In this document: positions 2,668 to 19,005 of the stretch, one piece after another
Position numbering within the stretch: position 1 is the first letter of the stretch
Layout: every line of letters begins with the position of its first letter
Origin: a candidate division NPL-UPA2 bacterium
GTDB lineage: Bacteria; NPL-UPA2; JAGMAN01
Length of the DNA: 19,163 nt
NCBI GenBank assembly: GCA_021129695.1
Contig: JAJOKU010000167.1
Coordinates: 1 to 19,163 of the forward strand
Reading direction: 5' to 3'
Notes under the pieces: model-generated
Told to the model about the DNA's origin: nothing
The model's input: only the letters and a program-made list of their open reading frames with translations
The model's database searches: none
Made by a program: the position numbers and the translations under genes

Positions 2668-4149
2668 ATGGTGAGGAAAAGGACGGGAAGGGATACGATT
2701 GCTGCTATTTCTACTCCTCTCGGTGAAGGAGGAATTGGCATCGTGCGCTTAAGTGGCCCTCAATCCTTAGCTATTGCTGAGCGGATATTCCAGGCAAGAG
2801 ATGGGATAAAGCCCTCCCAATCCCCAACCCACAGCCTGCACTATGGCCATATAACTCAGAATGGAGAGATAATAGATGAGGTTCTCCTTACGGTGATGAG
2901 AGCTCCTCGCACTTATACCCGGGAAGACATTGTGGAGATTAACTGCCATGGAGGGATAGTGCCCTTAAGAAAGGTCTTAGATTTGACCCTTAAAGAGGGG
3001 GCCTGTTTAGCCGAGCCCGGTGAGTTCACCAAGAGAGCTTTTCTTAATGGCCGAATAGATTTAGCCCAGGCAGAGGCAGTTGTGGATGTTATCAGGGCCA
3101 AGACCAGCCTCAGCCTGAAAACAGCAATGTCCCAATTAAGGGGCAATTTTTCAAGGAAAGTGGAGGATTTGCGAACATTAGTGGTCAATTTTATAGCTAA
3201 AGTGGAAGCAAATCTCGATTTCCCTGATGAGGATGTGGTGAAACACACACACACACAGCCAAAGGCAATGCCGAAGGCAGCCAAAGGCAATGCTACTCCG
3301 TTGCAGCACCGGCCAAAAGCCGGTGTTGAGAGCCTAAATTGGCAAGAGATGAGAGAGGAGCTCTCAGAGGTGGTGGACAGTCTAAACAAGCTTATAGCCA
3401 CGGCCAAAAACGGAAAGGTCCTCCGGGAGGGAATAAGGGTGGCCATTTCCGGAAAGCCCAATGTGGGAAAATCCAGCCTCTTCAACGCCCTTTTAGGGGA
3501 GAATCGGACCATCGTCACCGCCACTGCCGGGACAACCAGGGATACGATTGAGGAAACAATAAACATAAAAGGAATTCCTCTTAACTTAGTGGATACGGCC
3601 GGGCTGAGGGAGGCTCAAGGAGAGATAGGCAGGCAAAGTGTGGCCAGGAGTCGGCGCAGTATGGGGGAAGCCGACCTCGTTCTCCTCGTCTTGGATGGGT
3701 CTGGGGCCTTGTCCCGCGAAGATAGGACCATCATGGAGGAAGTGAAGGACAGGGCGGCCATCTTAGTCATTAACAAGATGGACCTGCCCCGAGGAATAGA
3801 TATAAGTGAGGTAAAGGAAGCATTGCCCGGTAAGAGGATAGTGAGAATTTCAGCAACTCGCAAGAGCGGTCTTCCCATGTTGAAGAGAGCGATAGTAGAT
3901 ATGTTCTGGCAGGGAAAGGTTCTTTCCCCGGAGACAGCTTTGGTGACCAACGCCCGGCATAAGAATGCTCTCCTCAGGGCTAAGGAGAGCCTACAAAATT
4001 GTAGGAGCAGTCTCCAGTCCCAGGTGCCCCTGGAATTTATTGCCCTGGATCTTAGAGCCGCTCTCAACAGCTTGGGGGAGATAGTGGGAGAGACGGCCAC
4101 TGAGGACATCCTCAACCAGATCTTCTCCCAGTTTTGCATTGGGAAGTAA
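2668..4149 (+). CDS. mnmE: tRNA modification GTPase MnmE (TrmE)
   Basis: MnmE works with MnmG to put the (carboxymethyl)aminomethyl group on C5 of wobble uridine 34 in certain tRNAs. The N-terminal folate-binding domain begins DTIAAISTPLGEGGIGIVRL. The G domain shows G1 GKPNVGKS (from residue 262), GTTRDTIEE, G3 DTAGLRE and G4 NKMD (from about 369), and the chain ends in the catalytic CIGK. At 493 residues it is some 35-40 longer than usual. The excess is a low-complexity insertion, residues about 193-223, in the central helical domain, starting with an (AC)n run and carrying palindromic DNA. The frame stays open, so the protein is probably functional. The partner gene mnmG, often immediately downstream, is not here. 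Confidence 0.96.
   Translation: MVRKRTGRDTIAAISTPLGEGGIGIVRLSGPQSLAIAERIFQARDGIKPSQSPTHSLHYGHITQNGEIIDEVLLTVMRAPRTYTREDIVEINCHGGIVPLRKVLDLTLKEGACLAEPGEFTKRAFLNGRIDLAQAEAVVDVIRAKTSLSLKTAMSQLRGNFSRKVEDLRTLVVNFIAKVEANLDFPDEDVVKHTHTQPKAMPKAAKGNATPLQHRPKAGVESLNWQEMREELSEVVDSLNKLIATAKNGKVLREGIRVAISGKPNVGKSSLFNALLGENRTIVTATAGTTRDTIEETINIKGIPLNLVDTAGLREAQGEIGRQSVARSRRSMGEADLVLLVLDGSGALSREDRTIMEEVKDRAAILVINKMDLPRGIDISEVKEALPGKRIVRISATRKSGLPMLKRAIVDMFWQGKVLSPETALVTNARHKNALLRAKESLQNCRSSLQSQVPLEFIALDLRAALNSLGEIVGETATEDILNQIFSQFCIGK
3242..3326 (+). repeat. In-frame palindromic insertion inside mnmE
   Basis: This stretch encodes the extra segment of MnmE. It has an AC dinucleotide run (about 3243-3257), then GGCAATGCCGAAGGCAG and a second GGCAATGC, then a perfect hairpin CACCGGC-CAAAA-GCCGGTG (3307-3325). 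The GGCAATGCC units resemble the GGCAGTGCC repeat found at 4239-4328, 9772-9852, 14551-14631 and elsewhere, but the copy is diverged. The assignment to that family is inference; the insertion relative to normal MnmE length and the hairpin are directly visible. Confidence 0.55.
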
Positions 4150-4238
4150 GCACGGGCAAGGCATTTTTCTTTACAAAACGATTATTAGATAAACCTTGAT
4201 TTATGAGTAACTTTTTGTTATCGTAGCAACACCGCAAA

Positions 4239-4328
4239 GCACAGCTGGGGCGGTGCCAATTCTCAGGCAGTGCCGTTCGCTTGCCTACGGCTGCCTTACG
4301 GCACTGCTTCGGCTGTGTGCAGCACTCT
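4239..4328. repeat. Large fold-back copy of the GGCAGTGCC palindromic repeat
   Basis: The gap between mnmE and hicB (4150-4366) holds no gene. Its centre is a long self-complementary block: GCACAGC (4239-4245), GGCGGTGCC and CAGGCAGTGCCG on the left face CGGCACTGC and GGCTGTGTGC on the right. On the reverse strand it reads AGAGTGCTGCACA, CAGTGCCGTAAGGCAG and GTAGGCAAGCG, the same words as the copies at 9772-9852 and 14551-14631, followed by an inverted half. It is therefore a fold-back or double copy of the same element. A role as transcript-end structure after mnmE is possible, but there is no clear T-run. Confidence 0.8.
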
Positions 4329-4366
4329 TACGTGTCACAGGCAGCTAGGTTATATGGAGGTGTCCT

Positions 4367-4582
4367 ATGCACAATGAGTTTAATGCTATTATTGAGAAGG
4401 ATGGTGGATGGTTCATAGCCTATTGTCCTGAAATTCCTGGGGCGAATGGTCAAGGACGGACAAAGGAAGAATGTCTTAAAAGTCTCTCCGATGCCATTCA
4501 CTTAATTTTAGAAGATCGCCGAGAGGACGCACTCCGGGGGATTCCTGCAGGGTCTATCCAGGAAATTGTTAGCGTCGAATGA
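4367..4582 (+). CDS. hicB: HicB-family antitoxin
   Basis: The 71-residue protein matches the short HicB/UPF0150 fold: FNAIIEKDGGWFIAYCPEIPGANGQGRTKEECLKSL followed by a helix DAIHLILEDRRED. HicB binds and neutralises the HicA mRNA interferase and usually represses its own operon. The ATG has GGAGG six bases upstream. The stop overlaps the next start (ATGA at 4579-4582), the usual coupling with hicA. No separate DNA-binding domain is seen, so this is the short form. It sits where mnmG might be expected and looks like a mobile insertion. Confidence 0.88.
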   Translation: MHNEFNAIIEKDGGWFIAYCPEIPGANGQGRTKEECLKSLSDAIHLILEDRREDALRGIPAGSIQEIVSVE

Positions 4583-4764
4583 AACATGAAGCATTACTGA
4601 AACATCTGCGTCGACATGGTTGTTACTTTAAACGAGAAGGGAGTTCCCATTCCCTATAGTGCAATCCTCAAACAGGTCATGTTGAAACTGTCCCTCGGCA
4701 TACAGAGATACCAAATAAACTTGCAAAGAAGATTGTTTGGAAATTGTCAATACCAGAAATGTAA
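4579..4764 (+). pseudogene. hicA: HicA-type mRNA interferase toxin, broken by an amber codon
   Basis: From the ATG overlapping the hicB stop, the frame reads MKHEALLKHLRRHGCYFKREGSSHSL, then TAG at 4657-4659, then stays open through CNPQTGHVETVPRHTEIPNK and ends with TAA at 4762-4764. This is HicA end to end, with the active-site His at position 24 (GSSHS) and a stop where the family usually has Trp (SLW), so TGG to TAG is the simplest change. A 26-residue fragment should be inactive. TAG ends several intact genes here (rpmH, yidC, the STAS gene at 17058), so reassignment is unlikely. A sequencing error remains possible. Confidence 0.85.
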
Positions 4765-6533: not shown

Positions 6534-7374
6534 AACAAAGGACACGTCTATGAGTGCTGACGCCGCCGAAGGCAGTGCCGATGGCAAGCGAAAGATAGTG
6601 GCTGAACTGAATATAGATGAGATCAGGCCAAATCGCTATCAGCCAAGGCGAGATTTCGGCAACTTAGAGGAGCTTGTCTCTTCCATAAGGGAGAAGGGAG
6701 TGGTGCAGCCAATCCTGGTCAGGGGCGCTGAGGACGGCTATGAATTGATTGCCGGAGAGAGAAGATGGCGAGCGGCCAAGGAGGCTGGTCTGATGACCAT
6801 TCCCGCCGTTGTCAGAGACATCTCCGAGGGGGGGATGTTGGAGGTATCTTTAATTGAGAACATCCAGAGGGAAGACCTAAATCCAATAGAAGAGGCGGGA
6901 GCTCTGCGCTTACTCATGGATGAATTCAATCTCACCCAGGAGGTGTTGGCCCAGCGTTTGGGAAGGCAGCGCTCGACCCTGGCCAATACCCTTCGCCTGC
7001 TAAATCTTCCTCGGGGAGTGCAAGAAGATGTTTCCCGGGGAAGAATCTCGGCTGGCCATGCTCGAGCCCTCCTCGCCCTTAGGAGTGAAAGAGAGCAGAA
7101 GAAGCTCTGCGCCCGCATCATCCGCCAGGGTCTATCGGTGCGGGAAACGGAGAGATTGGTTGAGGAGAAGTCAGTTCTTCGAAGAAAGTCGCCCAAGGCG
7201 ACCAGTCGTGATCCCCAGATTGTGGCGTTGGAAGCAGAGTTGCGGCGGCGCTTTGGGACGAAGGTAGATATAAAAGAAAGAAATGGAGCGGGCAGGATTA
7301 TCATAGAATACTATTCACATGAGGACCTGGGAAGAATCATGGAAATCTTGGAGCTGTCGGAGACTCTCAAGTGA
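6481..7374 (+). CDS. parB: Chromosome partitioning protein ParB (Spo0J)
   Basis: ParB is the parS-binding CTP-dependent clamp. The N-terminus carries the ParA-contacting LGRGLEALIP. The ParB core runs IDEIRPNRYQPRRDF, then GERRWRA (residues 92-98) and ENIQRE (125-130), which belong to the nucleotide-binding site. A helix-turn-helix follows (LTQEVLAQRLGRQRSTLANTLRLL, about 150-173). The C-terminal dimerisation domain ends the 297 residues. GTG 6481 is preceded by AAAGGAGG nine bases away. Residues 26-38 (ADAAEGSADGKRK) in the flexible linker are encoded by a copy of the palindromic repeat. The stop overlaps a GTG of a small downstream ORF. Confidence 0.96.
   Translation: MERRVLGRGLEALIPEVKTKDTSMSADAAEGSADGKRKIVAELNIDEIRPNRYQPRRDFGNLEELVSSIREKGVVQPILVRGAEDGYELIAGERRWRAAKEAGLMTIPAVVRDISEGGMLEVSLIENIQREDLNPIEEAGALRLLMDEFNLTQEVLAQRLGRQRSTLANTLRLLNLPRGVQEDVSRGRISAGHARALLALRSEREQKKLCARIIRQGLSVRETERLVEEKSVLRRKSPKATSRDPQIVALEAELRRRFGTKVDIKERNGAGRIIIEYYSHEDLGRIMEILELSETLK
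6562..6596 (+). repeat. Short in-frame copy of the GGCAGTGCC repeat in parB
   Basis: GCCGCCGAAGGCAGTGCCG followed by ATGGCAAGCGAAAGAT matches the ends of the longer copies (CCGCCGT[T/A]AGGCAGTGCCG and GTAGGCAAGCGGAAGAT) with the middle part missing. It is read in the same frame as in the response regulators, giving GSADGKRKI against GSAVGKRKI. It lies in the linker between the ParA-contacting tail and the ParB core, where an insertion should be tolerated. Confidence 0.7.
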
Positions 7375-9733: not shown

Positions 9734-10207
9734 GTGGCTGATAGCAATGGTGGGATAATGGCCGGGGACATGAAAGAGTGCTGCACAGCTGTAGGCACCG
9801 CCGTTAGGCAGTGCCGATTCTCAGGCAGTGCCGTAGGCAAGCGGAAGATTCTAATTGTAGAGGATAGTCCCACTCAGCTCCAGATGACCCAGTTCTTCTT
9901 AGAACAGGGAGGATATGAGGTCATCACGGCCACTTCTGGGGAGGAAGGGGTGAGTAAGGCAGAGGAGGGAAGCCCCGGCCTTATCCTTATGGACATTAAT
10001 ATGCCGGGAATGGATGGATGGGAAGCCACTCGTAGAATCAAGGCTAAGGAGGGAGGAAAACCTATCCCTATTGTTATGCTAACTGACCAGGACAGAGGCG
10101 CCGATGTAGAGAAGGCCCATGAGGTGGGAGCAACTGACTATATTGTTAAACCTTTTACTCCACCAGTTTTGTTAGAAAAGGTAAGGAAGATTCTAAGCCA
10201 AACATAA
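9734..10207 (+). CDS. Single-domain response regulator with repeat-encoded N-terminal tail
   Basis: A receiver (REC) domain with no output domain. After a 35-residue tail it reads KRKILIVEDSPTQ (acidic pocket), LILMDINMPGMDG (phosphoacceptor Asp), PIVMLTD (Thr switch) and YIVKPF (Lys). The GTG start at 9734 gives MADSN, parallel to MADTN of the regulator at 14534, though no good Shine-Dalgarno sequence precedes it; an in-frame ATG at 9758 is an alternative. The tail KECCTAVGTAVRQCRFSGSA comes from the palindromic repeat and is not part of the REC fold. It is probably phosphorylated by the histidine kinase encoded at 12521. Confidence 0.88.
   Translation: MADSNGGIMAGDMKECCTAVGTAVRQCRFSGSAVGKRKILIVEDSPTQLQMTQFFLEQGGYEVITATSGEEGVSKAEEGSPGLILMDINMPGMDGWEATRRIKAKEGGKPIPIVMLTDQDRGADVEKAHEVGATDYIVKPFTPPVLLEKVRKILSQT
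9772..9852 (+). repeat. GGCAGTGCC palindromic repeat, copy in response regulator 1
   Basis: This 81-bp block matches 14551-14631 at 78 positions, while the receiver domains that follow have diverged strongly. It contains TAGGCACCGCCGTTAGGCAGTGCCG, capable of a stem through GGCAC/GTGCC, followed by a second CAGGCAGTGCCG and GTAGGCAAGCGGAAGAT. It is read in-frame as the N-terminal tail. Confidence 0.9.
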
Positions 10208-10214
10208 TAAATAT

Positions 10215-10293
10215 CACAGAGAGCACGGAGCAAGAAAAACTTCTGGGGCCGCGGATTTATAGGATTTATATGTATTTCTCTGTATCCTCTGTG
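10215..10293. repeat. CACAGAG/CTCTGTG imperfect inverted repeat
   Basis: CACAGAGAGCACGGAG (10215-10230) and CTCTGTATCCTCTGTG (10278-10293) are imperfect inverted copies flanking an AT-rich centre with GATTTATAGGATTTATAT. The element fills the 100-base gap before the secretion ATPase gene. It resembles an intergenic repeat rather than a promoter or terminator. Confidence 0.5.
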
Positions 10294-10307
10294 GCTGGGA
10301 GGTTATC

Positions 10308-12138
10308 TTGAGAGATAAATTAGCCGATTTCCTCATTAAGCAGGAAGTTCTCACTGAGAAGCAGTTGGAGGAAGCTCTCAGTGAGAGTAAACTAACTGGC
10401 CGGGGCTGGGAGGAAGTGGCCGAGCGGAAGGGCTGGATTTTGGATGAAGAGTTAGCCCGGAAGAAGGGAGAATGCTTCTCCATACCCTATATAAGCTTGG
10501 CGACTTCAATGGTCAATCCTCAAATTGCCCATCTCCTTCCAGAAGATATAGTCCGTAGCCATAAGGCTGTTCCGGTGGCAATCAAGGGAACCCAGCTTCA
10601 AGTGGCCATGGTCTCGCCTCTAAACTTGGCTCTGCAGGATAGGATGAGACTGCTCACCGGTTATAAGATAAGCCCAATGATTGCTACTGAGAAGGCTCTT
10701 GACCAGGCTATAAGTCAGCACTTTAGCATAAAAGAGGCGGCCAAGCAGACCCTCATTGATATGAGGATGGAGGACCTGAGGGTAGCTGAGGAGGGAGGGG
10801 AGCTATCCATTGAGGAACTGAGGCAGGGGGTGGAAGAGGTCCCGGTGGTCCGCCTGGTGAATTCAGTCATCACCGGGGCAATTAACTCCAAGGCCAGCGA
10901 TATTCACTTAGAGCCTCAGGACCCAGAGATGAGATTGAGGTATCGGGTGGATGGAGTGCTCCACAACATCATGACCATCCCCAAACATGTGGAGCCATCG
11001 GTTGTCTCCCGAATAAAGTTGATGGCCGATATGGATATCACTGAGAGGCGCCGCCCCCAGGATGGACACATCTCCATAAAGCAAGATGGGAAGGACTATG
11101 ACCTGCGTGTCTCCACCCTGCTCACCGTGAACGGGGAGAAGGTGGTAATGAGGATATTGGATCGGTCAAGTTTAATTGTGGAGCTTGATAAGTTAGGTCT
11201 GCCTCCAAAAGATGAAGCTGTCTTCAAGGATTTAGTGGCCAAGCCATATGGGATAATCCTGGTTACCGGGCCCACCGGCAGTGGAAAGACCACCACTTTA
11301 TATGCTGTCCTCAGCCAGTTGAACAGCGTAACGGATAACATTATTACGGTGGAGGACCCGGTAGAGTATGGGTTAGACGGGATTAACCAGGTCCAGATCA
11401 ATCCTCAATCCGGAATAACCTTCTCCAGCGGCCTTCGGACCATATTAACCCAACTTCCGCACTTCGCCAGTTTTCATCTGGCTCTCCGACGGAAGAGCTT
11501 GAAAAAGTGTCGGTAACACATTTTGATTTAGAAAAATGCCTCTCCGTCGGTAGTGAATGTTTATGAACGGGAGATCTGCGGAAGTTGGGATATTAAGGCA
11601 AGATCCAAATGTGATCATGGTGGGGGAGATAAGAGATGTAGAGACGGCTGAGATCGCCATCCATGCCGCTCTCACCGGGCATCTGGTTTTCAGCACTCTG
11701 CACACAAACGATGCCCCGGGAGCAATTGCCCGTCTCATCGATATGGGAATTCAGCCTTTCCTGATTTCCTCCTCGGTCATCGGGGTGGTAGCCCAGAGAT
11801 TGGTTAGAACCATCTGCCCGGATTGTAAAGAGGCTTACGAGCCGCCGGAAGAGGTTTTGAGAGAACTGAGCTTAGAGCCAGAGGCCAGGCTTTACCGGGG
11901 CCGGGGTTGCCAGTACTGTTACCAGAGCGGCTTCCGAGGTAGGTCCGGGGTATTTGAGATAATGAAGGTGAGCGATGAGCTGAGGAGACTGGTCCTTGGA
12001 AAGGAATCGGCCGGGGTAATCAGGGAGGCTGCCGTTAAGGAGGGAATGACCAGCCTGAAGAGGGCTGGCCTGGAGAAGGTGCTAGATGGAATTTCTACTA
12101 TTGATGAGGTTAGGCGAGCTGTTTATGTAGAGGAATAA
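10308..12138 (+). pseudogene. Type II secretion/type IV pilus assembly ATPase (GspE/PilB), split by an insertion
   Basis: Two reading frames are pieces of one GspE/PilB ATPase, which powers assembly of a pilus or pseudopilus at the inner membrane. The first part has a MshEN/T2SSE N-terminal domain, then SDIHLEP, RYRVDGVL and Walker A GPTGSGKTTT (residues 321-330), and runs to FSSGLRTIL. The second part, after 11589, resumes [14 protein letters not shown] (Walker B), then the His-box region [16 protein letters not shown] and a CPDC/CQYC zinc site. Removing the 148 bases 11442-11588/9 (141-bp insert plus one 7-bp repeat) restores an uninterrupted frame. The product should be inactive. The TTG start at 10308 follows GGGAGG. 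Whether it is GspE or PilB cannot be decided. Confidence 0.9.
11449..11589. mobile_element. 141-bp MITE-like element inserted in gspE/pilB
   Basis: The insert has perfect 13-bp terminal inverted repeats, CCCAACTTCCGCA (11449-11461) and TGCGGAAGTTGGG (11577-11589), and is flanked by the direct repeat ATATTAA (11442-11448 and 11590-11596), a 7-bp target duplication. It has no transposase and must have been moved in trans. Its right end, read on the reverse strand, matches the sequence starting at 19006 (CCCAA, one mismatch, TTCCGCAGATCT) and shares internal words CTACCGACG and TGTGTTACCGA with it. I cannot name the IS family. Confidence 0.92.
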
Positions 12139-12521
12139 TGGAGCCGTATACTGTTCCTGAGGGTTTATATATTAGCCAGGTGGCCCGGGTGCTTTTTGGG
12201 GTGGCCATGATCGGATTATTCATCCGGCTTTCCAGGTCACCACTCATTAGAGAAAGGGGATGGAGGTTCATCCGGGTGGGAGCCTGTCTCTTCTTTTGGT
12301 GGAGCCTGAATACTTTTCTCCTCTATTTCTCCGAAAGATTTGTTCATCCCCTCAACTTTACTGGTCATGCCGAGGACTGGAGCCAGAAACTGATCATTAA
12401 TGATGCCCCCTCTACCATCTTCTACATAACCGGGCTCCTTGATCCCCTCTTAGTGGTTTCTGCTACGTTCTTCATCTTCTTAGGCTTAAGGAAGCTGCGG
12501 GCACGGCGGGAGGTGTGGTAA
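12138..12521 (+). CDS. Predicted three-helix membrane protein preceding the histidine kinase
   Basis: A 127-residue protein with hydrophobic helices at about 12-30, 46-64 and 97-118 and a basic C-terminus ([10 protein letters not shown]). The ATG overlaps the ATPase stop by one base, and its own stop overlaps the kinase ATG by one base, so the three are one translational unit. No family is recognised. The immediately following kinase also begins with three membrane helices, so this could be a sensory partner. Confidence 0.75.
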
Positions 12522-13612
12522 TGGCAAAGCTTCTTCCCCTGACACCGATCTGGGTTATCAACCTGATTGGGTGCCTTCTTCTGGTTGTCCTCAGTGTCCT
12601 GACAAAGCTTCGAGCCGGTCACCTCTATCAGAGGGAGAGAGAGAACGCTCTCTGGCTTTACCTTAATTGGGTAAGTTTAGCTCTGCTCATCTTTTCTCTA
12701 TCCCGAGCGGCCGGGTATATAGCCGAGAGATTTCTTGTTGCCGCTGGTCAGGTGGAAGTGTGGGAGTTTTTGAAACCTTTCTCCTCTGGAATAAATTCTA
12801 TTAGCTTTCTCATCATTGCCATATTTACCTTAGGTTATAAAAATGCTGAAGAGACACATCAGCATTTATCTGCCCGTAACGCCGAGTTGGAGCAAGCTTA
12901 TGAGAGGATACGTCAGCAAGCCAGGATGAAATCAGACTTCGTCTCCGCCGTTTCTCATGAACTGAGGACACCCCTTACCTCAATCAAAGGTTATGCCTCC
13001 ATTCTCCTTACTGAGAGGTTGGGGAAGATTTCTCCCGTCCAGCGTGAGAGGCTCTCCAAGATAGATAAGCACAGCGATCGATTGACTGCCCTCATCAATG
13101 ACCTCTTAGACCTAGCCCGCATTGAATCCGGAAGAGCAAGGATGGAGATGAAGCCATTAGAGTTGGGAAGGGTAGTTCGCAGCAGCCTCTCCACAGTAGA
13201 AACCCAGGCTGAAGAGCGCGAAATTGAGTTGAAGGCAAGGGTGCCAGAGGGAATATCTGCGGTAATGGCCGATGAGAAAAGCCTGGAACAGATTTTCATT
13301 AACCTCCTGAGTAATGCCATTAAGTATACCAGGGAGGGCGGGGAGGTAACGGTGAGGGCGGTAGAGAACCAGAGTTTCGTCCAGGTGGATGTTGTAGATA
13401 CTGGCATTGGCATCCCGGAGGACTGCCTGGGGAAGGTCTTTGATGAGTTCTTCCGGGTAGGTGGTGAAGCCATGGCCCAGACGAGAGGCACTGGCCTGGG
13501 ATTAGCCCTTGTGAAGAGGATGGTTGAGGCTCATCGGGGGAAGGTCTGGGTGGAGAGCCAGTTGGGGAAAGGTTCTACTTTCAGCTTCACCCTGCCCTTG
13601 GCCCGAACGTAA
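12521..13612 (+). CDS. Membrane sensor histidine kinase (HisKA-HATPase)
   Basis: A 363-residue kinase with three membrane helices (about 10-29, 44-62, 92-106), a coiled linker, and a complete transmitter. The phosphoacceptor His146 lies in [19 protein letters not shown]. The N box is [15 protein letters not shown], the G1 box [11 protein letters not shown], the F box VFDEFFRV and the G2 box [16 protein letters not shown]. No extracytoplasmic sensor domain is visible, so signals may come from the membrane or the preceding membrane protein. ATG 12521 is preceded by GGAGG at seven bases. The nearby single-domain response regulators are the likely phosphate acceptors. Confidence 0.93.
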
Positions 13613-13626
13613 AAAACTGAGTAGGC

Positions 13627-13667
13627 AAGTTCCATACGCCCCTTCGCTCAGGGACAGCACGGAACTT
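13627..13667. repeat. Compact hairpin element related to 9564-9730
   Basis: AAGTTCC (13627-13633) pairs with GGAACTT (13661-13667), with further imperfect pairing of ATACGCCCCT against AGGGACAGCAC around the loop TCGCTC. The same words flank the larger element at 9564-9730, but here CGCTCA occurs once, without insertion. The 13613-13695 gap holds nothing else apart from the next ribosome binding site. Confidence 0.65.
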
Positions 13668-13695
13668 TAGCAGGTGATAAAGTTGGGGGGTTGAG

Positions 13696-14541
13696 ATGAG
13701 AAAGAGCTTGGAAGAGGAAAGGAAGCGTCTACACCAAGAGATAGCAAGCTGTAGCAAGGAGGGGCTGGAGAAGAAACTCTTAGAGTTATCCATTATGTTT
13801 GAGATAGCTCGGGAGGTGAACTCCACCTTAGACCTGGAAGAAGTATTGGGCCTGATCTTAGATCGGGCCGCCGATATCTTAGAAGTAGAACTGGTCTCCC
13901 TTATGTTAGTTGAGGAGGAGACCGGGGAGCTGGTCATCAAGGTGGCCAGAGGCCTGGAGGAGGGGATTGTGAAGACAGCACGGGTGAAGATGGGCGAGAA
14001 TATCTCTGGCTTGGTGGCTGAGAGTGGAGAGCCACTGCTTGTCCCCAACATTGATAAGGACCCTCGTTTTGTCCAGAGAGATGGAGAGAGATACTATAAT
14101 CGTTCCCTGTTGAGCGTTCCCTTAAAGGCAAAAAGGAAGGTGATTGGAGTAATTAATGTCAATAACAAGGCTGATAAAGGGACATTTAATCAAGATGACC
14201 TCCTTCCGCTGACCGCTCTTTCCAACCAGGCAGCCATGGCCATTGAGAATTCCCGCCTGCATGAGCGGGTCCGGAGGAAGGCAGAGGCTCTGGAGGCAGC
14301 CAACCAGGAGTTAAAGAAGGTATCTGAAGAGAAACGAGAATTCGTATCTCAGGTCTCTCATGACCTGAGAACTCCCCTAACTTCCATCAAGGGCTTCACC
14401 TCAATACTTTTAACGGGTAGCTCGGGGGAGCTTACCCAGGGGCAGAAGGAGAAATTAGAGAAGATAGGTAAACACAGCGATCGGTTGACCGCCTTAATCA
14501 AAAACTTAGTAGAGCATTCCAGGGGAGAGAAGGATGGCTGA
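13696..14541 (+). CDS. GAF-HisKA protein without a kinase ATPase domain
   Basis: The 281-residue protein has an N-terminal coiled coil, a GAF domain (about 35-185; GENISGLVAESGEPLLVPNI, LLSVPLKAKRKVIGVINVNN), a second coiled stretch, and a HisKA dimerisation/phosphotransfer domain with His222 in [19 protein letters not shown]. It ends at LIKNLVEHSRGEKDG, exactly where the ATP-binding domain should begin. The HisKA part closely resembles that of the kinase at 12521, including HSDRLTALI. It cannot autophosphorylate by itself; it may be a phosphotransfer or heterodimer partner, or a gene truncated at a domain border. The stop overlaps the next regulator start by 8 bases. ATG follows GGGGGGTTGAG. 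Confidence 0.88.
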   Translation: MRKSLEEERKRLHQEIASCSKEGLEKKLLELSIMFEIAREVNSTLDLEEVLGLILDRAADILEVELVSLMLVEEETGELVIKVARGLEEGIVKTARVKMGENISGLVAESGEPLLVPNIDKDPRFVQRDGERYYNRSLLSVPLKAKRKVIGVINVNNKADKGTFNQDDLLPLTALSNQAAMAIENSRLHERVRRKAEALEAANQELKKVSEEKREFVSQVSHDLRTPLTSIKGFTSILLTGSSGELTQGQKEKLEKIGKHSDRLTALIKNLVEHSRGEKDG

Positions 14542-14980
14542 CACGAACACGAAAGAGTGCTGCACAGCCATAGGCACCGCCGTAAGGCAGTGCCGATTCT
14601 CAGGCAGTGCCGTAGGCAAGCGGAAGATTCTTGTTGTTGATGATGACCCGGATGCAGTGGAGATAATCCGCTTCTTTCTCTCTGATGCGGGCTATGAGGT
14701 GACCTCGGCGAGCAATGGACAGGATGCTATTAAGAAGGCCGAGGAAATTGAACCGGACCTCATTACCTTAGACATCAAGATGCCGGTGATGGATGGCCTT
14801 CAGGTAGCCAGTGCTCTAAGGGCAAGACCAGAAACCAAAAAAATCCCCATTATGGCCATCTCCATTGTAGGGGATGAATTAGAGGAGAAAGAGGGAATTG
14901 ATGAATCGTTATGCAAACCCTTTAGTGGCGATGAGCTTTTATCCAAGGTGAAGAAGCTTCTCAGAGGAGGGCAGGGATAG
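14534..14980 (+). CDS. Single-domain response regulator 2 with repeat-encoded tail
   Basis: A 148-residue REC protein. After the tail MADTNTKECCTAIGTAVR and GKRK it reads ILVVDDDPDAVEII, LITLDIKMPVMDG (phosphoacceptor Asp), IMAISIV and CKPF with the conserved Lys. ATG 14534 lies inside the end of the GAF-HisKA gene and is preceded by GGGGAGAGAAGG. The tail is nearly identical to that of the regulator at 9734 because both contain the same 81-bp repeat. The coupling to a HisKA-only gene suggests a shared phosphorelay. Confidence 0.9.
   Translation: MADTNTKECCTAIGTAVRQCRFSGSAVGKRKILVVDDDPDAVEIIRFFLSDAGYEVTSASNGQDAIKKAEEIEPDLITLDIKMPVMDGLQVASALRARPETKKIPIMAISIVGDELEEKEGIDESLCKPFSGDELLSKVKKLLRGGQG
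14551..14631 (+). repeat. GGCAGTGCC palindromic repeat, copy in response regulator 2
   Basis: Differs from 9772-9852 at three of 81 positions. Identity ends sharply on both sides: upstream codons and the receiver-domain DNA beyond AAGATTCT are clearly diverged. It is in the same frame and orientation relative to the receiver domain. The pattern fits recent copying of the element, or gene conversion, better than inheritance from a duplicated gene. Confidence 0.9.
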
Positions 14981-15100: not shown

Positions 15101-15155
15101 TACAGCCGAAGGCAGTACTGCAAGCGAAGCAGCACTGCCTTGCGGTGCTTCACCG
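15101..15155 (+). repeat. GGCAGTGCC-family repeat upstream of response regulator 3
   Basis: AAGGCAGTACTGC (15109-15121), loop AAGCGAA, GCAGCACTGCCTT (15129-15141) form a hairpin with 12 of 13 pairs. ACAGCCGAAGGCAGT matches words of the parB copy and of the 4239-4328 copy. The frame is open from 15069 through the repeat into response regulator 3 (reading TAEGSTASEAALPCGAS), so it could be an N-terminal tail as in regulators 1 and 2, but no good start codon precedes it. Confidence 0.65.
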
Positions 15156-15167
15156 TATTTGATTTTT

Positions 15168-15562
15168 ATGAACGAGAGGATTTTAGTGGCTGATGATGAC
15201 CCGGACATCGTTGATATCATCCAGACGGTCCTGGAGGGAGAAGGTTTCAGGTTTTAGTGGCCAATGATGGGGAAACTGCTTTAAGGAAACTTAGGGAGGA
15301 GAGGCCAGACCTACTGCTTCTAGACATTATGATGCCCAAATTGGATGGCTGCCAGGTCTGCCAGCATCTTAAGGACGATGCAACTCTCAGCTCCATTCCT
15401 GTGGTCATCATCAGCGCCAGGGGGCAGGAAAGCGATAAGGTTAAGGGGTTTCGCGCCGGGGCCTGCGATTATATTGTTAAGCCTTTTGACCCTTTACAGT
15501 TGCCTGAGATAGTGAGGAAGAACCTGAGAGGTAAAGATGGCCAAGATTTTGGTTGTGGATGA
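15168..15562 (+). pseudogene. Response regulator 3, receiver domain with a single-base frameshift
   Basis: Reading from ATG 15168 gives MNERILVADDDPDIVDII, then EGEGFRF and a TAG at 15255-15257. In the next frame, from GTG 15257, the domain continues ANDGETALRKL, LLLDIMMPKLDG (phosphoacceptor Asp), VVIISARG and YIVKPF. One extra base near 15251 would restore FRVLVAND and a 131-residue receiver. The stop and GTG overlap (TAGTG), so reinitiation is conceivable, but neither half would fold alone. It could equally be a missed G in a consensus sequence. The 3' end overlaps response regulator 4 by 26 bases. Confidence 0.8.
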
Positions 15563-15899
15563 TGAGCCGGACATCGTAGAGATCATTCAGATAACATTAG
15601 AGGCGGCCAATTTCCAGGTTGTTACGGCCGGCAATGGGGAGGAGGCTTTAGAGAAAGCTCGGGAGGAAAGACCTGACCTCATCTTGTTAGATGTGATGAT
15701 GTCTAAGATGGATGGCTGGACAGCTTGCAGTCAGCTTAAGGAGATAGTTGATAGAACCCCGATAGTTATGTTAACGGCCCGGGGGGAGACGGAGGCGGTG
15801 ACCAGGGCCCATCAGGCTGGGGCAGAAGACTATATAGTCAAACCATTTAACCAGGCAGTATTGCTGGGTAAAGTGAAGAAGGCCCTGGAAGGGAGATAA
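15537..15899 (+). CDS. Single-domain response regulator 4
   Basis: The 120-residue receiver domain is intact: AKILVVDDEPDIVEII, LILLDVMMSKMDG (phosphoacceptor Asp; Ser replaces the usual Pro after the MM), PIVMLTARG and YIVKPF. It lacks the repeat-encoded tail. ATG 15537 lies within the end of regulator 3 and follows GAGAGGTAAAG. Its stop overlaps the ATG of the secretion membrane gene by one base, linking signalling and pilus/secretion genes in one unit. It is highly similar to regulator 3 in its first 20 residues, suggesting tandem duplication. Confidence 0.93.
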   Translation: MAKILVVDDEPDIVEIIQITLEAANFQVVTAGNGEEALEKAREERPDLILLDVMMSKMDGWTACSQLKEIVDRTPIVMLTARGETEAVTRAHQAGAEDYIVKPFNQAVLLGKVKKALEGR

Positions 15900-16597
15900 T
15901 GCCTACCTACGCTTACACGGCCAGAGACAGTGTTGGCAAAATGTACCGGGGGACCTTGGAGGCAGTTGATAAAAAGATGCTCCGGGCCCGCCTCCGGGAG
16001 ATGGGCTACTACAGCACCTCCGTTAGGGTATCGCATTCCCTTCTCTCCTGGGGTTCTTCGAAGAAGGGAGGTAGAATAAGGCAGGGGGAGCTGGTCGATT
16101 TCTCTCAGCAGTTTGCGGCCATGATCAAGGCCGGTTTATCATTAACCAGATGCTTATCTGCCTTAGAGGAGCAGAGCGAAAACCTTCAGCTTAGAGAAGT
16201 TCTTCGGGCCATCAGCCTAGATATTGCCGGAGGAGCCACGCTTTCCGAGGCTCTGTCAAAACATCCCCAGACATTTTCCAACTTCTTCGTAACCATGGTC
16301 TGAGCAGGTGAGACAGGAGGGGTTCTCCCCGGTGTCTTAGAGCGCTTAGCTCGGCACTTAGAGAAGGAGGAGGAGTTGCGCCGTAAGGTAAAATCGGCCT
16401 TCGCCTACCCGATTATCGTCCTCTGTGCAGCCACGGTGGTAATCACTTTTCTGGTCATCTTCATTATCCCCATCTTTGCTGATGTCTACGGCAAGCTGCA
16501 TGTCACTCTTCCCGGTCCCACTTTGGCCTTGATAACATTGAGCAATTTCGTCAGAGACTTCTGGTGGGTTATTCTCATCCTTATCATCGCATTTTAA
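15899..16597 (+). pseudogene. Type II secretion/type IV pilus inner-membrane protein (GspF/PilC), internal stop and 3' truncation
   Basis: GspF/PilC is the polytopic platform protein of pilus and type II secretion machines. The start MPTYAYTARDSVGKMYRGTLEA is typical, followed by the first T2SSF domain (FSQQFAAMIKAGLSLTRCLSALEE). At 16301-16303 a TGA replaces the Arg of FFVTMVRAGETGGVLPGVLERLA (CGA to TGA is the simplest change); the same frame then stays open through the first membrane-helix pair to a TAA at 16595-16597. Only about 232 codons remain of the usual 400, so the second T2SSF repeat is missing. With the split ATPase gene this shows decay of the whole locus. Confidence 0.87.
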
Positions 16598-16608
16598 GAG
16601 GGGAAGAA

Positions 16609-17040: not shown

Positions 17041-17057
17041 CCTGATTGGAGGGCATT

Positions 17058-17438
17058 ATGGTTGGTTGTGAGATCACTACCAGAAGCTATAACGTTGCCA
17101 CTGGCACTGCCTCTGGCGGTGGCAAATTAGTTCAGGTGATTGCTGTCCATGGTTTCGTCGATGCCCATACCTATTCTGAGTTGGCCGAGGTATTAAACGG
17201 CCTGATCGCTGAGGGGAACTATAGCCTGATCCTGGATCTCAAGAAGCTGGAGTATATCTCCAGCGCCGGTTTTACCGTCCTCCTGGCTACGGTCAGGAGG
17301 GTAAGGGAGAAGCAGGGAGACTTAAGGCTGGTGAACCTCCCTCCCAAGATCCGCAAGATTGCTGATGTCTTGGGCTGTTCCAGTATCATTAAGATTTTTG
17401 ATGACCCGAAGGAGGCCTTAGCATCCTTTAAGGTTTAG
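17058..17438 (+). CDS. Anti-sigma factor antagonist, STAS domain (RsbV/SpoIIAA-like), copy 1
   Basis: A 126-residue STAS protein. In the partner-switch, the unphosphorylated form binds the anti-sigma kinase and frees its target. LILDLKKLEYISSAGFTVLL aligns with the SpoIIAA phosphorylation loop FMDSSGLGV, placing the target serine at Ser69. FVDAHT and LRLVNLPPKI are further STAS landmarks. The start is ATG 17058 after GGAGGG; the upstream in-frame TTG would lie at or before the transcription start. Compared with copy 2 at 18128 it has an extra NVATGTASGG segment encoded by a palindromic repeat. The next gene is the cognate kinase. Confidence 0.9.
   Translation: MVGCEITTRSYNVATGTASGGGKLVQVIAVHGFVDAHTYSELAEVLNGLIAEGNYSLILDLKKLEYISSAGFTVLLATVRRVREKQGDLRLVNLPPKIRKIADVLGCSSIIKIFDDPKEALASFKV
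17095..17125 (+). repeat. Short palindromic in-frame insertion in STAS protein 1
   Basis: TTGCCAC (17095-17101) and GTGGCAA (17119-17125) are perfect inverted repeats around TGGCACTGCC. The encoded ATGTASGG has no counterpart in the paralogue at 18128, whose alignment is otherwise nearly gap-free. GGC-ACT-GCC is read as Gly-Thr-Ala, the same frame as in the other coding copies of the repeat family. Confidence 0.55.
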
Positions 17439-18060: not shown

Positions 18061-18122
18061 CCTCCTATCTTGCTCCCATGTGAAATGCTTTGCATTTCAC
18101 AAGAAAGCAGGGGGAAAGGAGG
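18061..18122 (+). promoter_or_regulatory. Hairpin leader before STAS gene 2
   Basis: CCTCCTATCTTGCT at the left can pair with GAAAGCAGGGGG at the right, ending directly before the ribosome binding site AAAGGAGG. The loop carries a perfect 9-bp hairpin GTGAAATGC-TTT-GCATTTCAC (18080-18100). The same leader without this inner 20-base addition stands before the kinase gene at 18487-18527. A weak TTGTCA (18002) and TATAAC (18026) just upstream could be a promoter. Structure and repetition are visible; a translational role is inference. Confidence 0.6.
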
Positions 18123-18486: not shown

Positions 18487-18527
18487 CCCCCTATCTTGCT
18501 TTCACAAGAAAGCAGGGGGAAAGGAGG
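18487..18527 (+). promoter_or_regulatory. Hairpin leader before kinase gene 2
   Basis: CCCCCT (18487-18492) pairs with AGGGGG (18514-18519) and GCTTTC (18498-18503) with GAAAGC (18508-18513), leaving loop ACAA and a bulge ATCTT. The stem ends at the AAAGGAGG ribosome binding site (18520-18527) of the ATG at 18533. The leader is a shorter copy of 18061-18122. It sits between two genes of one presumed transcript, so it could set their relative translation. Confidence 0.65.
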
Positions 18528-19003: not shown

Positions 19004-19005
19004 AT

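Follow-up and report, generated by a model that had tools for sequence, protein, structure and literature searches.

Scattered through the genome of a candidate division NPL-UPA2 bacterium is what we read, with a probability of roughly 0.83, as a family of very short mobile repeats, non-autonomous and confined to one genus, which are tolerated in genes and most likely translated with them. The family came to light in one stretch of 19,163 nucleotides (contig JAJOKU010000167.1 of assembly GCA_021129695.1; hereafter the window, meaning the whole stretch analysed), in which two response regulators, RR1 and RR2, begin with almost the same 81-bp block. A first-pass annotation had proposed a single mobile palindrome with a Gly-X-Ala core, often accompanied by GKRK, whose sequence it did not recognise. 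Its observation of a repeat family is confirmed, the family being larger than described, and its interpretation is partly supported. The unrecognised sequence is a composite of a non-palindromic 21-bp unit (CACGTAAGAGTGCTGCAAGCG), here called the seed or S1, and a module nested within it. Gly-X-Ala comes from the nested module and GKRK is simply the right end of the seed in one phase; the treatment of everything as one palindrome was rejected after folding.

The genome of the window (G000; 909,787 bases in 167 contigs, 69.6% complete), of which the window is the entire contig C2, was compared with two others of the same genus, G001 and G002, all three assemblies being incomplete. The nearest records to the MnmE protein of the window are from JAUWHM01 (deposited as a Nitrospirota bacterium, 78%) and JAGMAN01 (an unclassified bacterium, 74%). 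Coding calls, genic tallies and the collapsing of orthologues were made by hand throughout, which we count against the reading given above.

Distribution of the seed

Searches with the 18-mer ACACGTAAGAGTGCTGCA, allowing up to three mismatches, found 61 places in the genus (24 in G000, 28 in G001 and 9 in G002) and none in G003 or G004, with a reversed control of 0. Two places without the right end of the seed (G000 C27:2613 and G001 C72:3559) were dropped, leaving 59 accepted S1 copies. Among 386 genomes multiple copies were present in 3: the 21-mer occurs 18, 17 and 4 times in the three members of the genus and gave one three-mismatch match each in 10 of the 383 others, a level not exceeding that of the reversed control (15 genomes by our count). 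An 85-mer matched 3 of 60 genomes, all within the genus, and Rfam reported nothing in the window at gathering scores. The dispersal claimed at the outset is borne out within G000, where blastn with positions 9768-9865 listed 50 matches with E no higher than 10, of which 27 fell below 0.01, and many contigs carry the repeat, which is thus not absent from the rest of the genome. Judged by these searches, the family is genus-specific.

Modules nested in the seed

A second class of sequence, S2, consists of modules built on GGCAGTGCCG (53 occurrences in G000 against 1 of the reversed pattern), TACGGTGAAACAC, ACTGGCCAAAGGCCGGTA and similar words, and the blocks of the family are mosaics of such short modules. 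Word masking of the 121,676 bases fetched around matches yielded 79 blocks, some of them low-complexity words outside the family. When lengths were taken for 57 of the 59 S1 copies (excluding G000 C58:4197, which has an N gap, and C110:3193, whose end was not found), 34 were of 21 bp and 23 ran from 33 to 105 bp, all 57 being divisible by three. In every one of the 23 nested copies the left 15 bp of the seed (with two changes at most) and its right 6 bp enclose extra sequence at one point, between GTGCTG and CAAGCG. Nested content is mostly GGCAGTGCCG modules (CACAGCC...GG) in G000 and G001 and 12-bp units of CCTTTAGGGCTG and TCCACAGGACGC types in G002, and one G001 copy (C8:16047) holds a G002-type unit. 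Five G001 copies, four genic and one intergenic, carry an extra 51 bp made up of a 24-bp base with a 10-bp and a 17-bp piece, either of which breaks the frame singly and which together keep it. Growth inside the elements may well proceed by slippage or template switching.

The word 'palindromic' in the first description holds for part of the family: two S2 elements that were folded are strongly palindromic (z -4.7 and -3.8 against shuffles), but the 81-bp block (z -1.1) and the seed (z +0.4) are not. The two classes also differ in where they lie. In G000, 21 of 23 S1 copies are genic as against 10 of 43 S2 blocks (Fisher 8e-8), although the groups overlap, two S1 copies lying within S2 blocks, and the S2 count is not genome-wide since the stretches were picked for holding the repeat. 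The remaining 33 of the 43, seven of them at contig ends, were not seen in genes (hand tally).

Base-exact insertion and its target

Comparison of orthologous sites shows filled and empty states to the base. At the L15 gene, G001 has ATTATCA followed by 21 bp, and G000 and G002 are uninterrupted, without exactly those 21 bp. CoaE has two such sites: B, where only G002 lacks the insert that G000 and G001 carry, and A, which is empty in G000 but holds 21 bp in G001 and, in G002, 45 bp. In YchF, G001 has 24 residues where G000 and G002 have HVRVLQA, and the YchF of P0005 and five outgroup rows are without exactly the seven residues; of 7997 YchF relatives at least 120 were listed, nine were compared by residue and 44 entered the summary alignment for the structure model discussed below. 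The EF-G proteins of G003 and G008 are seven residues shorter at the insert site, and a search for EF-G in G002 returned only a 43%-identical paralogue; this comparison leaves out the L15 rows of G003, G004, G006 and G008 and the EF-G row of G004. In MurG, Nnr, MnmE, an activase-like protein and RR2 the site is shared between genomes and the contents differ. None of the distant homologues compared carries the corresponding insert, and conservation of the tails in distant orthologues was not seen. Separately, one YchF record, P0006 (ENA source), has 505 residues with the first ~140 duplicated in tandem, possibly an assembly artefact.

These sites bear on whether the window and its relatives were mis-assembled around a high-copy repeat, which we consider barely credible. 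Seven contigs (C13, C63, C72, C43, C96, C119 and C40) do start or end within the repeat, G000 is broken into 167 pieces and one AspRS insert crosses an N gap; yet separate genomes agree on the sites, with different contents and intact flanks, at MnmE and YchF in three genomes and at CoaE, MurG, Nnr and others in two or three.

Insertion occurs in either orientation. No target duplication is visible at the empty sites of L15 and CoaE, and no inverted ends were seen by eye in the 21-mer; the terminal inverted repeats and target-site duplication of a miniature inverted-repeat transposable element (MITE) are thus not features of S1. Across 49 sites, remaining after eight hand-picked orthologous copies were removed, the target consensus is A^AA(A/G)G (A at -1 in 47, A at +1 in 39, A at +2 in 43 and G at +4 in 41). 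An alternative origin would dispense with transposition: short homologies would allow the sequences to spread by gene conversion or template switching, with growth through slippage. Such an origin would suit the RR1 and RR2 copies, almost identical though 4.8 kb apart, as well as the 10-bp and 17-bp pieces, which look duplicated within elements, and a sister element (S3, below) found at parB genes only. Homology-driven copying does not, however, give entry into unrelated genes at base-exact points with few common target bases, and we regard this origin as unlikely.

Reading frames and signs of translation

The length of the seed, a multiple of three, leaves any reading frame intact, and stops occur in only one of its six frames. 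By hand tally it is read in four phases, three of them sense and one antisense. Where the phase would place TAA in frame, all five copies (RR1, RR2, the G001 orthologue of RR2 and two NtrC-type regulators) have AAA instead; at the same position the 54 other copies have T in 48, A in 5 and C in 1 (Fisher p 9e-5, or 8e-4 with orthologues collapsed), although recognition of genic copies by their open frames may have passed over one with a stop in a dead gene. At 43 collapsed genic sites the frame read is TRKSAAS in 24, HVRVLQA in 9, TKECCKR in 4 and the antisense FACSTLTC in 6, with two frames unused and a sense to antisense ratio of 37 to 6 by hand tally (p values for frame choice 2e-7 and 2e-6). 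The favoured TRKSAAS frame is hydrophilic, and hydropathy accounts for the choice in part, not wholly.

Inserts present in DNA and mRNA might instead be skipped by ribosomes or spliced out. Precise insertion in housekeeping genes is expected of skipped elements, and two S2 elements fold strongly; skipping, on the other hand, requires neither lengths in multiples of three nor an absence of stops, and here 57 of 57 lengths are so divisible and 5 of 5 stops are mutated, which makes skipping highly improbable. Translation of the inserts into the proteins is, as far as sequence can indicate, most likely. An AlphaFold2 model of G001 YchF (mean pLDDT 82.5) places the insert (residues 156-179) mostly in coil, with pLDDT below 50 over 161-172, between helices predicted at 121-153 and 175-196.

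Host genes

By hand tally, 51 of the 59 S1 copies are genic, 7 intergenic and 1 unclear, the genic shares being 21 of 23 in G000, 22 of 27 in G001 and 8 of 9 in G002. As the hand gene list spans 89% of the window, S1 is genic about as often as random landing would make it. Twenty host proteins were scanned against protein models: 14 S1 hosts, four with S2 only, ParB (S3) and IspH (seed fragments). Despite the insert, 14 of the 20 reach the curated threshold set for a named full-length model or for a domain pair (MurG, MurC, CoaE, L25, RpoD, IspH, trigger factor, FabD, ThrC, Nnr, TrpE, L15, EF-G and MnmE). The EF-G, thymidylate kinase, L15 and AspRS hosts align to solved structures, and in the case of L15 the alignment has a gap of seven residues where the insert lies. 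Names of host genes beyond those matched to models or structures are presumptive. The mobile, translation-compatible repeat of the first description therefore stands as regards dispersal, gain and loss at orthologous sites, compatibility with the frame and hosts of both housekeeping and signalling function; what has changed is the unit, which is composite.

Elements in the window

The elements of the window and the two regulator genes are as follows.

9769..9843, plus strand: nested S1 element at the N-terminus of RR1, 75 bp, the seed (15 + 6 bp) around a 54-bp module
9758..10207, plus strand: host gene RR1, starting at ATG 9758 or at an ATG within the element
14548..14622, plus strand: nested S1 element at the N-terminus of RR2, 75 bp
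14534..14980, plus strand: host gene RR2, with family matches beginning at residue 28 at the earliest
6543..6590, plus strand: sister mini-element S3 (DTSTSADKR type) in the ParB linker, containing a 24-bp nested module
3237..3331, plus strand: S2 palindromic-module insert in MnmE, at the same site with other contents in G001 and G002 (right end set by eye)
4230..4336, no strand assigned: intergenic composite of S2 modules enclosing a reversed nested S1
15101..15160, no strand assigned: intergenic S2 element ahead of response regulator 3, a word-masking block
17095..17125, no strand assigned: candidate fragment of S2, short and reversed, within the STAS-type gene 17046-17438, by sequence word only

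As first reported, the 81-bp blocks at 9772-9852 and 14551-14631 (78/81 bp identical) precede far more diverged receivers (47/116 residues and 207/330 bases identical). The RR1 element translates as KECCTAVGTAVRQCRFSGSAVGKR, the TAA of the seed being altered to AAA, and RR2 shares both frame and change; in G001 the orthologue of RR2 carries 105 bp there. After the second of the two possible RR1 starts no ATG, GTG or TTG codon lies in frame ahead of KILIVED, and the family matches shown begin at residue 36 or later of the 157-residue frame; in RR2 the single in-frame ATG, GTG or TTG ahead of KILVVDD lies upstream of the element. Gene duplication alone is an unlikely origin of the similar tails because the receivers differ and an NtrC-type regulator of G001 carries the seed alone, with no module, at the corresponding position ahead of KILIVDD. 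A wide distribution of the tail peptide was also dropped, a search with the RR1 tail among candidates of similar length giving only the window's own protein.

Of the other copies listed by the first-pass annotation, all but the one in the STAS-type gene proved real. That at 4239-4328 belongs to the block at 4230-4336, which is intergenic, gives a better fold than shuffled sequence does (z -2.4) and encloses a reversed nested S1 of 57 bp (4278-4334, minus strand); that at 15101-15155 is the intergenic block ending at 15160. The proposed mnmE copy (3242-3326) is genuine: the insert is missing from five more distant homologues aligned, and the MnmE model TIGR00450 matches in two stretches. The parB copy (6562-6596) exists, but as the inner part of the longer S3 insert, which is bare at this site in G001 and absent in G002 and G003; a wide S3 family was rejected, four copies having been found in nine genomes, every one at parB genes. 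For the STAS-type gene, no orthologue was found among the fetched loci, and at 17095-17125 the match is only to a short reversed word.

How the elements may move

Clean insertion next to a short target without duplication recalls the movement of IS200/IS605 or REP/RAYT elements. Sequence comparison shows two steps: S1 first inserts precisely, with no visible target duplication and in either orientation, at A^AARG-like sites, and the inserted seed then acts as a landing pad for species-specific modules entering between GTGCTG and CAAGCG. Selection would presumably purge copies with stops or in folded cores, so that those in the loops and tails of working proteins remain. Movement of the seed may resemble single-strand transposition of the IS200/IS605 or REP/RAYT type; no linked enzyme was found. 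Tentatively, and somewhat short of an even chance, this could amount to a two-storey system, in which a frame-neutral seed spreads in essential genes and then docks lineage-specific modules in codon-sized steps. If so, a dedicated insertion mechanism would extend proteins across the genus step by step, and the peptides would be subject to selection.

The elements could also be plain repetitive extragenic palindromic (REP) elements moved by a REP-associated tyrosine transposase (RAYT), with genic copies as chance landings, which we judge quite unlikely. The modules are short, clustered, palindromic and mostly outside genes, and intragenic REPs are described in the available portion of PMC3733652. 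S1, however, has no stem-loop and is genic in 51 of 59 copies, as against REPs that are, in the same portion, mostly intergenic (PMC3733652). RAYT mobilisation was rejected as a candidate after a search with the profile Y1_Tnp, other transposase families not being searched, found no Y1 transposase in G000 (69.6% complete) or G002, and the sole Y1 transposase in G001 proved to be flanked by a different, unrelated repeat. That locus (L288, G001:C78) holds a RAYT-like frame of 234 aa with its own flanking repeat AAATGGTCGCTGTCCCTATTT.

The outcome of the transposase search weighs against a mobile, translated family as well, as do several further points. The seed has little internal symmetry, unlike the Rickettsia elements. 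Six of the 20 scanned hosts fall short of full-model support: MoeA and ParB match a domain model only, and a GyrA fragment, an AsnB-like protein, RR1 and RR2 lie below every cut-off shown. The unused frame LRLQHSYV (-0.19) differs little in polarity from HVRVLQAK (-0.14), which is used, the used antisense frame FACSTLTC is hydrophobic (+1.40), the unclear copy (G001 C128:8356) would fall in another antisense frame, and frame bias may in part reflect the phase of the target. The A at -1 is favoured by the search word itself, which contains it, and the target sites are not fully independent because four, situated within S2 modules, share their flanks and three stand ahead of similar receivers. 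A bare S1 keeps the frame by its length alone, and nested copies between genes are only two (G000 C2:4318 and G001 C128:994), so that multiple-of-three lengths free of selection are barely sampled, and S2 was mostly not seen in genes, those broken by it not having been systematically sought.

Other repeats and decayed genes nearby

An unrelated repeat at 11440-11598, with imperfect inverted ends (33 nt, 79%) and a stop, interrupts a gene that we take to encode a GspE/PilB-type ATPase; it looks like an ordinary gene-breaking MITE, unlike S1, and a stretch partly similar to it begins at 19004. The gene at 15899-16598, presumably GspF/PilC-like, contains an in-frame TGA near 16301 and ends prematurely, and with the broken ATPase gene it makes the pilus or secretion cluster look decayed. 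In response regulator 3 (15166-15562) the frame is broken near 15250 in the receiver, through decay or assembly error. Directly downstream of the intergenic composite lie two small genes (4365-4763), the second with an internal stop, which we assume to resemble a HicB/HicA pair. A perfect 28-bp direct repeat, TTTCACAAGAAAGCAGGGGGAAAGGAGG, occurs at 18095-18122 and 18500-18527, upstream of two adjacent genes.

Comparison with known systems

The literature searched, in the portions available, holds no description of the S1 family or of a 21-bp frame-neutral docking seed. The parallel first drawn with Rickettsia palindromic elements (RPEs) is supported as an analogy. In the accessible part of the sources, RPEs measure ~150 bp and R. 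conorii has 44 integrated copies, close to half of them in reading frames (PMC10969869), and Wolbachia-type elements (WPEs) sit in frame in addA, addB and priA (PMC4224334). Like these, S1 is short, dispersed, often in frame in unrelated conserved genes and variable between related genomes (PMC10969869, PMC4224334); unlike them, compared by partial description only, it is a seed of 21 bp and not a palindrome of ~150 bp, is read in several phases, docks modules and belongs to another lineage.

Intragenic GTAG/CGTC-tagged REPs, described from Opitutus terrae, Thauera, Rickettsia conorii and other bacteria (PMC3733652), resemble S1 in being small, single or grouped, and in contributing ~20-82 residues to proteins; S1 differs in that no linked tyrosine transposase was found, its copies are mostly genic and it forms no stem-loop, the unit that the folded S2 elements do fit. 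PARCEL repeats of Mollicutes are likewise palindromic coding repeats of presumed mobile-DNA origin, and a Methanocaldococcus case is cited in the same source (PMC2996958, seen in part); on that account PARCELs are tandem arrays making repeat proteins, as opposed to single insertions with nesting. Palindromes within coding genes, as here, are reported from the mitochondria of nematomorphs and Magnusiomyces (PMC6649704, in excerpt), the former as long perfect inverted repeats and the latter skipped in translation, and neither, so far as the excerpt goes, a dispersed 21-bp seed.

With hosts that include ribosomal proteins, EF-G, a major sigma factor and an aminoacyl-tRNA synthetase, the family would constitute a natural experiment in insertion tolerance, and would open two matters to testing: the means by which elements this small move, and whether nested, frame-neutral insertion builds new protein segments step by step. 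To the coding palindromes of Rickettsia and Wolbachia, the best-known cases, the genus studied here would add a second, polymorphic set in which empty sites can be placed to the base.

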